From Psychrobacter sp. NG25 (GTDB lineage Bacteria > Pseudomonadota > Gammaproteobacteria > Pseudomonadales > Moraxellaceae): a stretch of DNA of 64,000 bases. Shown here one piece after another: positions 777-61,641 of this stretch (within the stretch, counting starts at the first letter, position 1; each line of letters opens with the position of its first letter). The notes beneath the pieces were generated by a model. The model ran no database searches, was not told the origin of the DNA, and was given only the letters and a program-made list of their open reading frames with translations. The translations under genes were made by a program, and so were the position numbers. The DNA lies in contig NZ_JADGMV010000001.1 in NCBI RefSeq assembly GCF_015234355.1, forward strand, positions 248,001-312,000. Direction: 5' to 3'.

Positions 777-1505
777 ATGTCAGGTTTATTAAAAAAACTC
801 CCCACCAAGCTGACCAATAAATTGCCAGCTAAAATATCTGACAACACAAGATTGCCAGTCGACAAGCCAACCAGCACACTCAAGCCAATCAGCAACCAAT
901 TCACCAAACTGTTATCAGTGACTAAATACTTGCCTGCCGGTGCACGATCGAGCATCTTGTCCAAAGCCTTTGGCAAAGTCGTGCCATATGTCGGCACGAC
1001 AGGCGTCTATTATGAAACGGTCAATCCCAATCAGGTGGTTGTCAGTTTAAATAACACCAAGTCTGTACAGAATCACATTGGTTCCATTCATGCAGTGGCC
1101 ATTACCTTATTGGCTGAAACGGCCACTGGATTTATCTTGGGTTTAAACCTGCCCTCTGACCGCGTGCTATTAATTAAGTCTTATTCGGTTAACTTTTATC
1201 GCCCCATTAAAAAAGGTCAAATTGCTGCGGTAGCCAGTTTATCTGATGAGCAGCGCTTAGATATCTTAAATACGCCAAAAGGTGAAATGGTTATACCTTG
1301 CGTGATTCATGACCGTGAGTCTGACAGCAACCGTGACCCAATCGTGGTTGAGATGACATGGGCTTGGATACCCAAATCTGAGCTAGAGGCACGTCGTCAA
1401 GGCAAAGCGAATGAAAAAGCTGCAGCAGTTGCTACAGAGTCTCCGGCAGAAACAGACACTGAGCAAAGCAGTCAACCCGTGGTAAATGACGAAGCTGCTA
1501 AATAG
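777..1505 (+). CDS. DUF4442 hotdog-fold protein (putative thioesterase-like)
   Basis: 242 residues, preceded by an AAGGA box at good spacing. The core, about residues 60-200, has the pattern of DUF4442, a hotdog-fold family related to acyl-CoA thioesterases: a PYVGTTG segment, then an NHIGSIHA motif (99-106) before the long central helix containing AE. The N-terminus (1-50) is basic with repeated LPxK pieces, and the C-terminus (from about 205) is an Ala/Glu/Ser-rich tail likely to be disordered; both lie outside the fold. Substrate is unknown. The gene stands alone, followed by a hairpin terminator. Family assignment is from memory of the motif; enzymatic activity is inference. Confidence 0.75.
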   Translation: MSGLLKKLPTKLTNKLPAKISDNTRLPVDKPTSTLKPISNQFTKLLSVTKYLPAGARSSILSKAFGKVVPYVGTTGVYYETVNPNQVVVSLNNTKSVQNHIGSIHAVAITLLAETATGFILGLNLPSDRVLLIKSYSVNFYRPIKKGQIAAVASLSDEQRLDILNTPKGEMVIPCVIHDRESDSNRDPIVVEMTWAWIPKSELEARRQGKANEKAAAVATESPAETDTEQSSQPVVNDEAAK

Positions 1506-1535
1506 CCAATAGTGCATCCCGACTCAATTAAATAT

Positions 1536-1577
1536 GATGCGCTGTACACTTTTTATATCTGTATAGCGCATCGTTTT
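1536..1577 (+). terminator. Hairpin terminator after the DUF4442 gene
   Basis: A 13-bp inverted repeat (1536-1548 with 1560-1572, one mismatch) is followed by GTTTTAAT. It begins about 30 nt after the stop codon. Confidence 0.6.
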
Positions 1578-2109
1578 AATAGTTGATTGAAGTTAGCACT
1601 TATATAACTAGCAACAATATTCTCTACTTAGATCCTCTAACGTCTTATCTGCTTCTAGAACATTCTGTAGCCCATATCGAATACCCACTGAAGCCTTCTG
1701 ACATGTACACCCTTCTAACCCCTACTCAACAGTATTACGGCACATAGCCCGTCGCAACGTATGATTCATAAGTACCACTTCTATATATATCACTGCTATA
1801 TACGCCCCTACTATAGATGCCACTGTACATATTGTCGTATGCCTTGATAAAGTTGATGATAAAAGACACGGGTTGCTTAAATCGTTAAACTGGGTAAAGA
1901 TTGTCTGTAAGCGCGCATGAGTTTGTTATAATAACATTTTGTTTTTCGTGAGTAGCAAGGCTCCGACTTTGGATGCTCCCTATCTTGTCTTTATCATCAT
2001 GATGAGAAGCTGTCGCCTGCCATAAACTACTGCCTACGATGAATAACTTTTACTATCGAACCAACTCTTCGTTTGTTACCTTTGTTCGCCCGCTATTAGG
2101 ATTATCCTT
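1578..2109. other. Long leader/intergenic region before thiG
   Basis: No open frame with a ribosome site was found. I looked for a TPP riboswitch (CUGAGA and the paired GAACCUGAUC-type blocks) because thiG follows, and did not see one. The only promoter-like signal is the extended -10 listed separately. Confidence 0.5.
1924..1932 (+). promoter_or_regulatory. Extended -10 promoter, probably for thiG
   Basis: The bases TGT-TATAAT form an extended -10 element about 180 nt before thiG. The -35 region is poor, as is common with extended -10 promoters. Near-identical TTGTTATAAT blocks precede potA and purL. Confidence 0.4.
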
Positions 2110-2937: not shown

Positions 2938-3278
2938 AACATCTAGCAACACGTCTCAAAGTCTATGATAAAACAATAAGAAAAAACGACGTCAGACGTA
3001 AATAAGCACTTAGGGATTTTGAACATTCTACTATTGGCAGCGACTAGTGGTAGATGTTCAACATAACCTAATCTCTGTTTCATTGAATATTTAGCTTCAT
3101 TAAATACTTGGCTTCATTGAATACCTACCAATGATAGTTTCTCATTCAACGTACTATCAATTCACAATAAAACTATGACAGCGTTAACCTTACTTTAAGT
3201 ATTACCTATACACTTATGCTTAATCGCTTTGTCCCACTTTTAAATTTAACTAAACACATCGTCATAAAAGGATTTATT
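2938..3278. other. Intergenic region before the wax-ester synthase
   Basis: Contains the three-unit tandem repeat listed next, and no credible gene. A weak inverted repeat near 3018-3060 has no T-tract. Confidence 0.5.
3079..3129. repeat. Tandem repeat, 3 x 17 bp, imperfect
   Basis: Three consecutive 17-base units starting TTCATTGAATA (3079-3095, 3096-3112, 3113-3129), differing at a few positions each. They lie about 150 bp before the wax-ester synthase start and could be spaced binding sites or replication slippage. Confidence 0.7.
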
Positions 3279-14011: not shown

Positions 14012-14118
14012 TATAGTTGATTCAATCTAAAAGAGAGGCAAGGCAACCGAGTGCAGATGTATATGTAATACTTTAAGCGAGGTTAACGCTATTACTCTTT
14101 TATAGTGGATTGACTATA
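14012..14118 (+). mobile_element. Correia-like miniature element, intact copy
   Basis: A 107-bp element starting TATAGTTGATT and ending GGATTGACTATA, with imperfect terminal inverted repeats of about 24 bp (19 of 24 matching). The inner part has CAAGGCAACCGAG and AAGCGAGGTTAACGC. A second copy of exactly 107 bp lies at 53862-53968. The TATA-bounded ends, length class and inner AAGGC..GAG / GCGAGG..AACGC pattern resemble Neisseria Correia (CREE/NEMIS) elements as I remember them. It encodes no protein and would be moved in trans. It sits between can and potABC. Confidence 0.85.
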
Positions 14119-48563: not shown

Positions 48564-48700
48564 ATTATAAGATTAGAGCATACATTTTAGCCCTATAATT
48601 CGTAGGGTTCACTCAATCCACCGTTAAATTAAATCTCAGAATAATTTATCATAAAATGGTCATTCAGAAGCGAGTTTTAGCCCTGATTGCAGCGGATATA
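48564..48700. other. Intergenic region before the large hairpin
   Basis: AT-rich. TTTTAGCCCT occurs twice (about 48586 and 48674), otherwise unremarkable. Confidence 0.3.
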
Positions 48701-48796
48701 CTTGGTTGGTCACTGGGCTGCGGAGGCTTGGCTAGAGATGGTCGCTCGAATGTTGGAACGCCTCTAGCCTTAGCCACCGCCCAGTGGACGACCAAG
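48701..48796. other. Large imperfect hairpin, possible structured RNA
   Basis: Stems in order: CTTGGT/ACCAAG, CACTGGGC/GCCCAGTG, GGCT/AGCC and GGCTAGAG/CTCTAGCC, 26 paired bases with small internal loops and a 24-base apical loop. It is much G/C-richer than the surrounding DNA. A 61-codon frame across it has no ribosome site and is taken to be a by-product. It could be a structured RNA, a small mobile or recombination element, or a cruciform. Confidence 0.6.
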
Positions 48797-48839
48797 ATAG
48801 TAGCAAAAAGCAGGATTAGCTCCCTATTTATAAAAACCT

Positions 48840-49561: not shown

Positions 49562-52500
49562 CTATCTTAACCAAGCACGAGCGTTACGGAACATACGCAT
49601 CCACGCGCCGTCTTCATCCCACTCTTCTGGTTTCCAGCTGTGGTTATAAGCTTTTAGGTTACGCTCAGGATGCGGCATCATGATCGTGACGCGACCATCA
49701 GTGCTACACAGACCCGTGACACCGCCGACCGAACCATTTGGATTGAGCGGATACGTCTCAGTTGGATGACCTTGGCTATCGACATAACGCATCGCAAGCT
49801 GACCGTGTTTTGCCATACCGTCGATTTCGTTGTTATCTAGTGTGGCATAGCCTTCGCCATGCGCCACAGCGATTGGCAAGATGCTGTCTTGCATGCCTTT
49901 GAACAGGATAGACTTGGTACGCTCAACTTTTACGTTGACCGTACGCGCTTCAAAACGAGCTGACTGGTTGGCGATGAAGCGTGGGAAGTTATCTGCACCT
50001 GGGATGAGGTCTTTTAACTGAGCCATCATCTGACAACCGTTACAGACACCTAGTGAGAAGGTATCAGGACGGGCGAAGAAGCGGACAAACTGCATGCGTA
50101 GCTCGTCATGGAACAAGATAGAGTTCGCCCAACCAGAGCCTGCGCCGAGCACGTCACCATAACTAAAGCCACCACAAGCGACCAGACCGTCGAAGTCACG
50201 TAGATTGATACGGCCACTGAGCAGATCACTCATGTGTACATCGACCGCTTCAAAGCCAGCTTGCGTAAAGCCTGCTGCCATTTCCGTCTGACCATTGACG
50301 CCTTGCTCGCGCAAGATAGCGACTCTTGGTTTATTCTCACGACTGGCTAAATATGGCTCTTCAACCTTTTGATTGAGATCAAAGTTCGGCGCAGCGATCA
50401 GACCTTGATGGCTAGCATCAGCAATCAAGTCATACTCTTGCTGTACGCACGCTGGGTTATCACGGCGACGCGCGATTTGATAGCTGACCTGAGTCCACGC
50501 TTGCTGTAATTCAGTACGGCTAAAGCGTAAAGTATCATCACCCATGAGCGTTGGCGTTTGGATAAGTAAGCTGTCTTCTTCTGAGCTTTGACCGACGAGG
50601 CTCAGCATATCAGCAACGTTAAACTCTTCTGCCAATTGCATGAGAGCAGCGACGTTTTCTGGCAATACTTGGATGACTGCGCCTAGCTCTTCACTGAACA
50701 GCTGACCGAGTAAGTTATCATCAGTTAACGACAGCTTGATACCTTGACGGCTGGTGAACTGCATCTCAGCGATGGTCGCCAATAGACCGCCATCACCGAT
50801 ATCGTGATAGGCGCTGATGACGCCTTGTGCATTACCCGCTTGGACAAAGTTAAAGAAGTCGACCAAATCGCTTGGCTGCGCCAAATCTGGGCAATCATTA
50901 CCCAATTGGCTCAGCGTTTGCGCAAGGATTGAACCACCTAAACGTAGCTTGCCTTTAGACAAGTCGATACGGTAGAACGCGCTGTCGCCATTGATTAGCT
51001 CAGGCGTTAGCGTTTTTGCCACATCAACCACAGGAGCAAAGGCAGTAATTACCAAGCTCATTGGTGATACGACTGATTTATCCGTCTCACCTGCTTCACT
51101 GCTGTCAGTCCAGTTGGCACGCATCGATAGCGAGTCTTTACCAACTGGAATCGCGATACCCAGTGCTGGGCACAGCTCTTCACCGACTGTATAGACCGCG
51201 TCAAACAATGCAGCATCTTCTGCATCATCGCCACATGCTGCCATCCAGTTCGCTGACATCGTGATATCAGACAACTGAGCAATACGCGCACCAGCGATGT
51301 TGGTAATCGCTTCGCCAATTGCAAGTCGTGCTGACGCTTGAGGGCTGATTAGCGCAACTGGTGTACGCTCACCGATACTCATCGCTTCACCGCTCATCAC
51401 CTGATCATCTAGCGCAATCAAGCCTGACGCTGTCACAGCACAATCAGATACTGGCACTTGATAGCGACCCACATACTGATCACGCACCACCATACCGGTG
51501 ATAGAGCGGTCACCGATACTAATCAAGAATGATTTGCTAGCGACGGTTGGATGACGCAGCACATCAGTAATAGATTCAGCTAAATTAACATCGCCAAGCT
51601 CTAGTGCTGGCAACGTGCGCTCAGAACGCTCAAAGCTACGCTTCATCTTCGGCGTACCACCTAGCAATACTTGCATCGGCATATCGACAGGCTGCTCAGC
51701 GAGCAATGTATCATCAACGACTAGCTGACGCACATCCGTGGCCGTTCCCAAGATAGCATATGGGCAACGCTCACGTGCACAGATCGCATCGAATTGGGCT
51801 TCGCTTTCTGGACGAATCGCGAGGACATAACGCTCTTGCGCTTCGTTTGACCAAATGGCCATTGGCGACATGCCAGCTTCTAACGATGGAACTTTACGCA
51901 GATCTAGTACCGCGCCCATCTCGTGGTCATTGACCAACTCAGGCATTGCATTAGAGATACCGCCAGCGCCCACATCATGCAATGACACGATAGGGTTGCC
52001 GTCTTTACCATTATTACTCGCATCGACATCACTACCCGCTAGTGCCCAGCAGCGATCCATCACTTCTTGGCAACGACGCTCCATCTCAGCATTGTCACGC
52101 TGAACTGAGGCAAAATCTAAGCCTTCATCGAGTGAACCACTATCAACTGAAGATGCCGCACCACCACCCAGACCAATCTGCATGGCAGGGCCACCAAGGA
52201 CGATTAACAAATCACCTTGCTGAATGGCATTTTTTTCAATGAGGTTGCGTTTGATATTGCCGTAACCACCTGCCAGCATGATTGGCTTATGATAGCCGCG
52301 CATCTCGCTGCCATCTTTTGCCGCTGACGTATCTAATTGGAAACTACGGAAATAACCGCATAGGTTAGGACGACCAAATTCGTTTGAGAAGTTGGCTGAG
52401 CCCAATGGTGCTTCAGTCATAATCTCAAGACTGGTTGCCATACGGTCTGGCGTGCCATAAGCCTGAGTACTCAATTGACCTGACTGCTCCCACTTCTCAG

Positions 52501-53560
52501 CGAGCTCTGGGATATGTAGGTGTGATACGTGGAAGCCTGTCAAACCTGCTTTTGGCTTACCGCCACGACCTGTTGCGCCTTCATCACGAATCTCACCACC
52601 AGCACCCGTCGCTGCACCCGCATACGGGGCAATAGCCGTTGGATGGTTATGCGTTTCGACTTTCATCAGAATGTCGATTGCTTCTTGATGGAAGTCATAA
52701 GGATGGGCAGAATTTGCATCCATCGCGTCAGTCGGAATTGGGTAAAAACGCATGCCGTCAGACCCTGCCATCACCGCAGCGTTGTCTTTATAGGCAGACA
52801 AGATACCTTGTGGATTCGACTGGTAAGTATTTTTAATCATTTGGAACAATGATTTTGGCTGTACTTCGCCGTCCACTGTCCACTCAGCATTAAAAATCTT
52901 ATGACGGCAATGCTCTGAGTTGGCCTGTGCAAACATCATCAGCTCAACGTCAGTTGGATTGCGCTTTAGCTCATTGACATAAGCATTCATCAAATAATCA
53001 ATGTCTTCAATTGATAATGCAAAACCAAACTGGGTATTGGCAGACTCTAATGCTGACTGACCTTGTCCGATGACGTCAATATGATTCAATGATGCTGGCT
53101 GCTCATCATCAAACAATTTGTTCAAATCATTCAAATCATAGACCAAGCTCTGCGTCATACGGTCAAACAATAATTGCTCAGCGTCTACTGGTAGTTTTTC
53201 GCCTGCTTCACTATCAATTGTTAACGTATAAACAACCACGCGTTCAACACGATTGATTTCAATTTCACAGTTATTAAAGATATCAGTCGCTTTACTTGCC
53301 CATGGCGAAATCGTGCCAAAACGTGGACCAACGATGACTTGTAATTGATTGTCCTGCGGGCCAGTCAGCACTGTCGCACTGTCAACAGCGAGTAGGTCTA
53401 ACGCCTTTTTATGTTCATCACCTTCGAGCTTGCGTGATAGCACATACACTTGCTGGGTACTTATTTGACTGACATTGAGCTCGGTTTTTTGCTGGAACTG
53501 ACTGATGAGTTGCTGCGTCTGAAAATCGGTAAGAAACGGTTGTCCGGCGATGGTCATCAT
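49562..53560 (-). CDS. purL: Phosphoribosylformylglycinamidine synthase
   Basis: 1332 residues, the large single-chain gammaproteobacterial form. PurL converts FGAR, glutamine and ATP to FGAM in purine synthesis. Order: N-terminal PurS-like domain, synthetase domains (QANSEHCRHKIFNAEW, KVETHNHPTAIAPY, GRGGKPKAGLTGFHVS), a pseudo-synthetase half, then the C-terminal glutaminase with the nucleophilic Cys in SLGVCNGCQMM and HGEGY, PHPER. A TGT-TATAAT box at 53626-53618 on the - strand gives a likely promoter. Terminated at 49495. Confidence 0.98.
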   Translation of the reverse strand: MMTIAGQPFLTDFQTQQLISQFQQKTELNVSQISTQQVYVLSRKLEGDEHKKALDLLAVDSATVLTGPQDNQLQVIVGPRFGTISPWASKATDIFNNCEIEINRVERVVVYTLTIDSEAGEKLPVDAEQLLFDRMTQSLVYDLNDLNKLFDDEQPASLNHIDVIGQGQSALESANTQFGFALSIEDIDYLMNAYVNELKRNPTDVELMMFAQANSEHCRHKIFNAEWTVDGEVQPKSLFQMIKNTYQSNPQGILSAYKDNAAVMAGSDGMRFYPIPTDAMDANSAHPYDFHQEAIDILMKVETHNHPTAIAPYAGAATGAGGEIRDEGATGRGGKPKAGLTGFHVSHLHIPELAEKWEQSGQLSTQAYGTPDRMATSLEIMTEAPLGSANFSNEFGRPNLCGYFRSFQLDTSAAKDGSEMRGYHKPIMLAGGYGNIKRNLIEKNAIQQGDLLIVLGGPAMQIGLGGGAASSVDSGSLDEGLDFASVQRDNAEMERRCQEVMDRCWALAGSDVDASNNGKDGNPIVSLHDVGAGGISNAMPELVNDHEMGAVLDLRKVPSLEAGMSPMAIWSNEAQERYVLAIRPESEAQFDAICARERCPYAILGTATDVRQLVVDDTLLAEQPVDMPMQVLLGGTPKMKRSFERSERTLPALELGDVNLAESITDVLRHPTVASKSFLISIGDRSITGMVVRDQYVGRYQVPVSDCAVTASGLIALDDQVMSGEAMSIGERTPVALISPQASARLAIGEAITNIAGARIAQLSDITMSANWMAACGDDAEDAALFDAVYTVGEELCPALGIAIPVGKDSLSMRANWTDSSEAGETDKSVVSPMSLVITAFAPVVDVAKTLTPELINGDSAFYRIDLSKGKLRLGGSILAQTLSQLGNDCPDLAQPSDLVDFFNFVQAGNAQGVISAYHDIGDGGLLATIAEMQFTSRQGIKLSLTDDNLLGQLFSEELGAVIQVLPENVAALMQLAEEFNVADMLSLVGQSSEEDSLLIQTPTLMGDDTLRFSRTELQQAWTQVSYQIARRRDNPACVQQEYDLIADASHQGLIAAPNFDLNQKVEEPYLASRENKPRVAILREQGVNGQTEMAAGFTQAGFEAVDVHMSDLLSGRINLRDFDGLVACGGFSYGDVLGAGSGWANSILFHDELRMQFVRFFARPDTFSLGVCNGCQMMAQLKDLIPGADNFPRFIANQSARFEARTVNVKVERTKSILFKGMQDSILPIAVAHGEGYATLDNNEIDGMAKHGQLAMRYVDSQGHPTETYPLNPNGSVGGVTGLCSTDGRVTIMMPHPERNLKAYNHSWKPEEWDEDGAWMRMFRNARAWLR

Positions 53561-53813
53561 AAAGGCATAATCCGTAAGATCAAGGCATCTCTGCCATGCT
53601 AAGTAAATGGTCTGCGTATTATAACAAGAAGCCCTGTAATAAGCAGGTCTAAACCAAGATAAATTGCCGAAAAGCGCATTTATTGAACTCGCAAACGGTT
53701 AGCAAATAATTGCCTTGTTCTTCCCTTTGACCTTCTCTCTGAGCTATTTTCTGGGCTTCTATCTGCGACATCATATTGCATACCGTTTTTTTAGAGCAGA
53801 AAGCTTGAGCGCA
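53561..53813. other. Upstream region of purL
   Basis: Contains the purL promoter; otherwise no gene. The Correia-like cluster begins at 53814. Confidence 0.4.
53618..53626 (-). promoter_or_regulatory. Extended -10 promoter of purL
   Basis: On the - strand TGT-TATAAT, -10 hexamer at 53623-53618, 58 nt upstream of the ATG; weak -35 CTGCTT at 17 bp. Confidence 0.5.
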
Positions 53814-54025
53814 TACAGCCGACTCAATTTAAAAGCAGTACAAGGCAATTGAGTGTAGATGTATAGTGGATTCAGTTTAAAAGAGATACAAGGCAACCGA
53901 GTGCAGATGTATATGTGATACTTCAAGCGAGGTTAACGCTGTAGCTCTTTTATAAAGGATTAACTATACATTGAATACCTCAAGCGAAGTTAACGCAGTA
54001 ACACTTTCATAGTGAAATGAGTATA
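53814..54025 (+). mobile_element. Correia-like element interrupted by a second copy
   Basis: The outer element starts TACAGCCGACTCAATTTAAAAG (here written in two pieces: TACAGCCGAC and TCAATTTAAAAG), breaks at its central GATGTATA, and resumes after the inner copy as TTGAATACCTCAAGCGAAGTTAACGC to AGTGAAATGAGTATA (again split). Together the two outer parts are about 105 bp, matching the 107-bp unit. It lies between purL and the stress-protein gene. Confidence 0.8.
53862..53968 (+). mobile_element. Inner Correia-like element, intact copy
   Basis: 107 bp from TATAGTGGATTC to GGATTAACTATA, with about 24-bp imperfect inverted ends (18 of 24 matching). Same length as the copy at 14012-14118 and same interior (CAAGGCAACCGAG, AAGCGAGGTTAACGC). 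It is inserted at the central TATA of the outer copy and is flanked by TA, consistent with TA-targeted (Tc/mariner-IS630-like) insertion. Confidence 0.88.
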
Positions 54026-54222: not shown

Positions 54223-54717
54223 ATGAGTAGACAAGACCATATCGATAAAGTGCAAGAACTGGTAAAAGACATCAAATTTGCCATGATGACCACACGCACT
54301 CATGAAGACCATCTACATGCCTGCCCAATGACAACCAGCGAAACTAGTATCGGTGCAAAAGAAATTTGGTTCATCGGCGATAAGACCACTGAAACGGTCA
54401 TAGATATCGAAAGAAATCCGCAAGTCAACTTGGCCTACGTCAGTCAAGATGCTAAGAATTATGTCTCTATCAATGGTAAGGCAGAATTGGTCGAAGACCA
54501 AGAAAAGCTCGATGAGCTATGGTCACCGATCTACAATGCATTTTATGAGCAAGGTAAAGAGGATCCAAATATACAATTAATTAAAGTCGTACCACATGGT
54601 GCAGAATACTGGCTAAGCGGTAGCTCAGTGGTTAACATGTTTAAGATGACCACCGCTGCGGTAATGGATGGTAAGAAAGCGACAAACTTAGGTGAAAACA
54701 ACTCAGTCACGCTGTAA
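54223..54717 (+). CDS. Pyridoxamine-phosphate-oxidase-like stress protein
   Basis: 164 residues, AAGGA before the ATG. The split-barrel FMN-binding fold of the general stress protein 26 family: FAMMTTRTHEDHLHACPMTT, GAKEIWFIGDKTTETVIDIERNPQVNLAYV, INGKAELVEDQEKLDELW and VPHGAEYWLSGSS. The family binds flavin; its reaction is not established. The stop codon TAA (54715-54717) is partly built from the first bases of a family B repeat. Confidence 0.88.
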   Translation: MSRQDHIDKVQELVKDIKFAMMTTRTHEDHLHACPMTTSETSIGAKEIWFIGDKTTETVIDIERNPQVNLAYVSQDAKNYVSINGKAELVEDQEKLDELWSPIYNAFYEQGKEDPNIQLIKVVPHGAEYWLSGSSVVNMFKMTTAAVMDGKKATNLGENNSVTL

Positions 54718-61170: not shown

Positions 61171-61544
61171 AATAGTCATCCTTTTTAATTATTATGACCT
61201 GTACCAATCGTCAATAATGACCGTCTGTACAGGTAATAAGAGCCATCTTCCATAATGCGTGACACGTAAGGTTAGTTTGACAAATAAGCCGGATGGTTGC
61301 AAGGCATCGACTGCCATTCATAACAATATCACTGTACAGCTGTATAATTGGTCATACATGATAAAATTTATGGACAGGGCAATAAGCTATTTAATCCTTG
61401 TAACCTTAAATAAAATATGGACAATAGCTACTCTAAAGCGAACGCTAAGAGCGACTGACTCTTTTAAAGCACAATTTTTAAAGCACGATTTTATTAAATA
61501 TAAGCAATCGGCTTTATTTTTACTATTTTATATCTATAGTCAAT
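61171..61544. other. Divergent intergenic region acs / flavoprotein
   Basis: AT-rich; a 98-codon frame from 61259 on + has no ribosome site and no recognisable product, so it is not called. A Correia relic occupies the right part. Confidence 0.4.
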
Positions 61545-61641
61545 TCACCCTATGATCGATACAAGAAAACTGAGTGCCCACGATATCGTTAGATAGTGAG
61601 CGAAGTTGATACCTGTAGCGATTTTATAGTGTACAGACCCT
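61545..61641 (+). mobile_element. Decayed Correia-like element
   Basis: About 97 bp aligned to the intact copies: TATAGTCAATTCA at the left, ACAAGAAAACTGAGTGC in the middle, GAGCGAAGTTGATACC, and TTTTATAGTGTACAGACCCTA at the right (two pieces: TTTTATAGTG, TACAGACCCTA). Many point changes and a few indels; its right end lies 19 bp before the downstream start codon. Confidence 0.65.

Follow-up and report, generated by a model that had tools for sequence, protein, structure and literature searches.

The locus lies in a window of 64,000 nucleotides, by which we mean the whole stretch of DNA that was analysed, from the genome of Psychrobacter sp. NG25 (assembly GCF_015234355.1, contig NZ_JADGMV010000001.1, positions 248,001 to 312,000 of the forward strand). 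Between two divergent genes, purL and a pyridoxamine 5'-phosphate oxidase-like gene, two short elements of one Correia-like family were located, the one within the other. The features in order of position are as follows:

49562-53560, minus strand: purL (phosphoribosylformylglycinamidine synthase), left neighbour, directed away from the elements; an ORF of 1332 aa matching NCBIfam NF003672 at 1921 bits (cut-off 783)
53814-53861, plus strand: left half of the outer element (older, subfamily B), from the alignment and the family profile, with an intact counterpart in two sister genomes, G015 and G070
53862-53968, plus strand: inner element (younger, subfamily A), 107 bp including both TAs, 101/107 identical to the consensus of the genome's copies (inner copy included) and missing from the G015 and G070 site
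53862-53863, no strand: left TA of the target-site duplication, two TAs being present here against one in G015 and G070
53967-53968, no strand: right TA of the target-site duplication, from the comparison of filled and empty sites
53969-54025, plus strand: right half of the outer element, from the alignment and the family profile
54223-54717, plus strand: pyridoxamine 5'-phosphate oxidase-like gene, right neighbour, directed away from the elements (Pfam PF16242, 6.1e-46)

Because the site falls between two divergent genes the insertion was probably neutral. Upstream of purL a non-coding stretch of approximately 114 bp (53561-53674) was 93-100% identical in six compared relatives that lack the elements, and the DNA beyond this block did not align in those six. 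The block is conserved and perhaps regulatory. Elsewhere in the window, positions 48675-48821 on the plus strand matched the Rfam Flavo-1 RNA at 45.5 bits (gathering threshold 42), a match that spans 147 bases against a 76-position model, is unexpected here and is possibly due to chance.

The original prediction was that the copy at 53862-53968 splits an older and more diverged copy at its central TATA and that the outer halves rejoin in sequence when it is removed. The inner copy is a complete unit with the coordinates as predicted, and the outer halves joined around one TA formed exactly 107 bp, which aligned without gaps to the inner copy and were identical to it at 80/107 positions. A gapped alignment of the joined halves with the inner copy scored 100, whereas 500 dinucleotide shuffles had a mean of -13.7 (sd 8.8) and the highest of them scored 16. 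In a search with the family profile the left outer piece corresponded to model positions 3-52 (E 4.6e-8), the right one to 50-106 (E 1.5e-9), and no match at E <= 1 to the same profile was obtained in the reversed window.

The joined outer copy was 89/107 identical to subfamily B, which was defined from four copies, and 81/107 identical to the main subfamily A, while an outer-copy consensus built from three species was 93/107 identical to B. The greater divergence of the outer copy is, judged from these identities, partly a difference of subfamily (B versus A) and not of age. Divergence alone would therefore overstate the age gap; of the predicted description "older, more diverged", the order in time is upheld by the relatives described below, and the use of divergence as a measure of age is in part withdrawn.

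The genome of NG25 contains at least 40 copies of the family, as 105 first-look candidates were reduced to 40 that were scored, all 40 were significant and 31 of them aligned over all 107 positions (1-107). Three further copies are found in the window:

3157-3249, minus strand: diverged family copy (nhmmer E 1e-12)
14012-14118, plus strand: full-length family copy (nhmmer E 2.5e-32)
61535-61638, plus strand: strongly diverged family copy (nhmmer E 3e-5)

At one other locus of the same genome two copies in opposite orientation are located 105 bp apart (1290-1396, minus strand, and 1501-1606, plus strand, counted within that locus). The inverted arms of the element are 32 nt long and 78% complementary, and 107 bp leave no room for a transposase gene. 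The family is a non-autonomous, Correia-like MITE: it is bounded by terminal inverted repeats, lacks a transposase, occurs in many copies and duplicates TA. The inner element was predicted to fold into a long imperfect hairpin (z -2.5), with 4 of 200 shuffles as stable, and when the locus was scanned for consensus promoters no excess of sites was identified (three, with 2.2 expected). A family-wide genome sample was matched in 46 of 199 genomes and in 3 of 16 genera. Elements of 105-107 bp that resemble the family in the core but differ from it at the ends were found in two other Moraxellaceae genera (represented by G130 and by G186 with G166), and one copy of G130 had a core 89% identical over positions 24-84 with both ends different.

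The locus was searched against 105 genomes of the genus including that of NG25 (G000); 100 matched, and 12 of the 99 other matching genomes were taken for an alignment of the locus. In G015 and G070 the match broke off precisely where the inner copy lies (query 1-424, then 528-980 or 522-981). In both sisters the outer element at this locus is unbroken, 105 bp shorter than the NG25 arrangement and with one TA where NG25 has two. These unbroken copies agreed with the joined halves at 100 and 96 of 107 positions. The net gain in NG25 is thus 105 bp, or 107 minus the duplicated TA, in agreement with the predicted insertion at a TA site. The target TA is near the middle of the outer element as claimed; its context in both sisters is TGTACAT (TG-TA-CAT), so that the TATA of the prediction has to be replaced. 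Among the 13 genomes aligned at the locus the inner copy was present in NG25 only, and both copies were missing in ten further relatives (G029, G083, G069, G018, G085, G004, G089, G037, G041 and G079). One of these, G029, could be aligned over the junction of the outer copy and has one TA there, a plausible site for insertion of the outer copy, with left-flank similarity that is short.

The simplest order is from no element to the outer element and then to the outer element with the inner one, which bears out the claim that the element moved after the outer copy had settled. It had been noted beforehand that strains showing stepwise tandem duplication would count against nesting, and such duplication or unequal crossing-over between copies could be held to account for the two left halves, which are direct repeats 48 bp apart and 77% identical. 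Tandem duplication would give adjacent whole units, whereas the order observed is half, whole unit, half with boundaries at TA, the inner (A) and outer (B) copies are in different subfamilies and the sister genomes carry the outer unit alone, so that this origin is extremely improbable. The arrangement is very probably a nested insertion with TA duplication. The same data would fit equally well an insertion that took place elsewhere, the locus having then been exchanged between species by recombination.

Copies closely similar to the inner one were used to consider its source. Other genomes have copies 105-107/107 identical to the inner one at four loci, one shared locus and three further ones, and these near-identical copies at different loci point to recent activity of the family. 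Of 19 copies selected because they closely resemble the inner one, 13 (102-107/107 identical) represent the shared locus in 13 genomes. The copy there sits shortly upstream of a start codon, as in G015 (C9:28482-29588). The shared locus is empty in NG25 (contig C27), and in a wider sample many other species were also empty, with a single TA, and mixed among the filled ones. A tree of this locus with 28 rows, of which 11 were filled and 17 empty, represented part of the matching genomes and was built after the G083 and G057 loci had been excluded; it grouped NG25 with empty rows (100/99), although G070 was on an odd long branch and many forks were open. Cut-and-paste of the inner copy from the shared locus was rejected as its source, with many species empty there and NG25 among the empty rows; original absence of the copy from this locus in NG25 would be at least as likely.

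The presence and absence pattern of the shared locus may reflect precise loss, late gain or allele exchange. This bears on a further explanation of the nest, namely an ancestral nested state from which G015 and G070 would each have lost the inner copy precisely, as a near-identical copy that is filled or empty with a single TA in mixed species indicates that precise loss or allele exchange may occur. Ancestral nesting requires a loss on top of an insertion, and the identity of the inner copy to copies elsewhere (106-107/107) speaks for a young insertion. We consider ancestral nesting with loss unlikely, and a recent insertion of the inner copy into the outer one remains the preferred reading.

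A pattern search for insertion at the same central TA in the 105 genomes resulted in one exact match, the site in NG25 itself, while with up to one mismatch 15 places in 14 genomes were identified against 6 for a reversed control pattern. Nesting was defined as matches at E <= 1e-3 separated by less than 160 bp, a definition that very diverged outer halves could escape. This place alone was nested in that sense among 172 Psychrobacter loci, some of which overlap, that contain 67 full-length matches. A hot spot for central-TA insertion was rejected on the single exact match and the one nested place in these genomes and loci. The outer copy of G015 contains 13 TA positions, so an insertion at the central one needs no special preference, and no palindromic preference was found around 27 insertion sites.

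A 107-bp non-autonomous Correia-like MITE very probably entered an older resident MITE of the same family at a TA close to its centre, and the target TA was duplicated with the 105-bp net gain described. We propose that the move would have been carried out in trans by a transposase of the IS630 family (Tc1/mariner-like). An IS630-family transposase is probably the mover, since IS630-type elements of the genus, one of them in NG25, have similar TATAGT ends and members of the IS630 family use TA targets. PF13358 (DDE_3) was matched in 84 of the 105 genomes of the genus and once in NG25, where the IS630 element on contig 25 (approximately 417-1325) appears intact, as one ORF is of the HTH_Tnp_IS630 type and the DDE_3 frame is free of stops. 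The two ends of this element start with TATAGTCAATCC and TATAGTCAGTCC and match the MITE ends at 17 and 15 of the 24 positions after TATAGT, the best in the genus being 19. Related IS ends in G028 and G033 (TATAGTTAATCCAGAATAAAAGAGATACA) were 25/30 identical to a MITE end.

In Psychrobacter loci that include ones fetched for IS630, and in which IS ends are related within the genus and not independent, 337 TATAGT sites were located outside recognised MITE copies. Over the 24 positions that follow TATAGT, the majority (253) agreed with MITE ends at 5-11 and 20 agreed at 17-19, of which 16 were IS ends and four were not identified IS ends. Sixteen hand-picked Psychrobacter IS ends matched MITE ends at a mean of 17.4/24. 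When 34 distinct Psychrobacter IS ends were compared, all of them starting with TATAGT as the comparison excluded other IS ends, the mean was 14.6/24 to the Psychrobacter MITE and 10.5/24 to Correia ends; 29 were nearer the Psychrobacter MITE, two were ties and three were nearer Neisseria Correia. The match between MITE and IS630 ends is partial.

No PF13358 match was obtained for G015 and G070 in the profile search of the 105 genomes, despite many element copies in both; the mover, if IS630, is therefore absent from these two genomes at present. Copy-rich genomes without such a match would also fit a transposase from outside the IS630 family, for example IS1106 (IS5 family), which has been suggested for Neisseria Correia elements in a 2009 review (PMC3898611). 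Both the duplicated TA and the sequence of the ends agree with IS630-type elements from within the genus, and a non-IS630 mover is possible but the less likely of the two.

The name Correia-like in the original prediction applies to the anatomy of the Psychrobacter element. It has the 107 bp of the short form of the Neisseria CREE (nemis), whose hosts belong to another genus and class. Correia elements are about 107 or 155 bp long and are characterised by outward promoters, RNase III processing and, in the long form, an IHF site. The end criterion for Correia elements is TATAGTGGATTAAATTTAAA; the inner copy has the Correia-type end TATAGTGGATT and TTTAAA, and the genome consensus begins TATAGTTGATTCAGTTTAAAA. 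Neisseria CREE shares with it the long imperfect hairpin, a difference of 105 bp between filled and empty sites (PMC2229807) and the TA duplication (PMC3898611), and is present in more than 100 copies per genome (PMC5039591) compared with the at least 40 of NG25. The 107/105-bp observation for CREE and the pairing of RUP with IS630-Spn1 were described by Delihas 2007 (PMC2229807). In the same paper RUP of Streptococcus pneumoniae is also a 107-bp MITE with TA targets and ends like those of IS630-Spn1; it is from another phylum, and is likened to the Psychrobacter element by description alone. In Snyder et al. 2009 (PMC2649163) the mechanism that mobilises CREE was given as undetermined, insertions were often at TA with two at CA, and a second end type (AACAAAAA) was reported. 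Closer to Psychrobacter, MITEAba12 of Acinetobacter (Moraxellaceae) is likewise a short MITE moved by a resident IS, but of a different family, with 113 bp, 16-bp ends, a 9-bp target duplication and ISAba12 as mover, according to PMC6382973. The open-access literature, as far as its available text extends, gave no report of a Correia-like family in Psychrobacter or of one Correia element nested within another.

A Neisseria consensus was built from 35 distinct 107-bp copies, which were picked by resemblance to a core motif and yielded the short Correia form. Its alignment with the Psychrobacter consensus scored above 1000 of 1000 shuffles (z 3.7), the cores being distantly similar. A whole-length profile had a best E of 8.8e-6 in Neisseriaceae (a copy in Alysiella) among the matches listed, with E-values that are inflated because the Neisseria loci had been selected with a pattern spanning the first 32-33 bases. 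When the profile was limited to positions 33-107, it had no significant match in Neisseria (best E 0.038 among the matches listed). Full-length homology with Neisseria Correia elements is likely, with moderate support: the consensus alignment and the whole-length profile speak for it and the profile of the core against it.

PF13358 was matched in four of eight Neisseriaceae genomes searched, and among G130, G186 and G166 in G186 only. In N. elongata, N. gonorrhoeae and N. viridiae the ends beside the DDE_3 match resembled Correia ends at 14-16/24, and all four Neisseria ends, taken as IS ends from their position by DDE_3, were nearer Correia than the Psychrobacter MITE. This parallel with Psychrobacter is a lead that can be tested and is no proof. 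This suggests, for few lineages and with a Psychrobacter-Neisseria core that is not significant by profile, that the ends may follow the local IS630 while the core is kept across genera. It is conceivable, at somewhat less than even chances, that Neisseria Correia and the 105-107-bp elements of the Moraxellaceae (Psychrobacter and the two other genera) constitute one old MITE superfamily in which the core is kept and the ends follow local IS630-type IS.

Psychrobacter are mostly environmental bacteria. The nest preserves a single jump cleanly in nature, with the target, the product and an uninterrupted relative all readable. It is a good but ordinary example of MITE insertion, and what merits pursuit is the link to IS630. 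Psychrobacter, with a Correia-like family and IS630 elements whose ends resemble it, provides a direct system for testing the mover, and if the superfamily reading is true, IS630-type transposases would be the long-sought movers of Correia elements.
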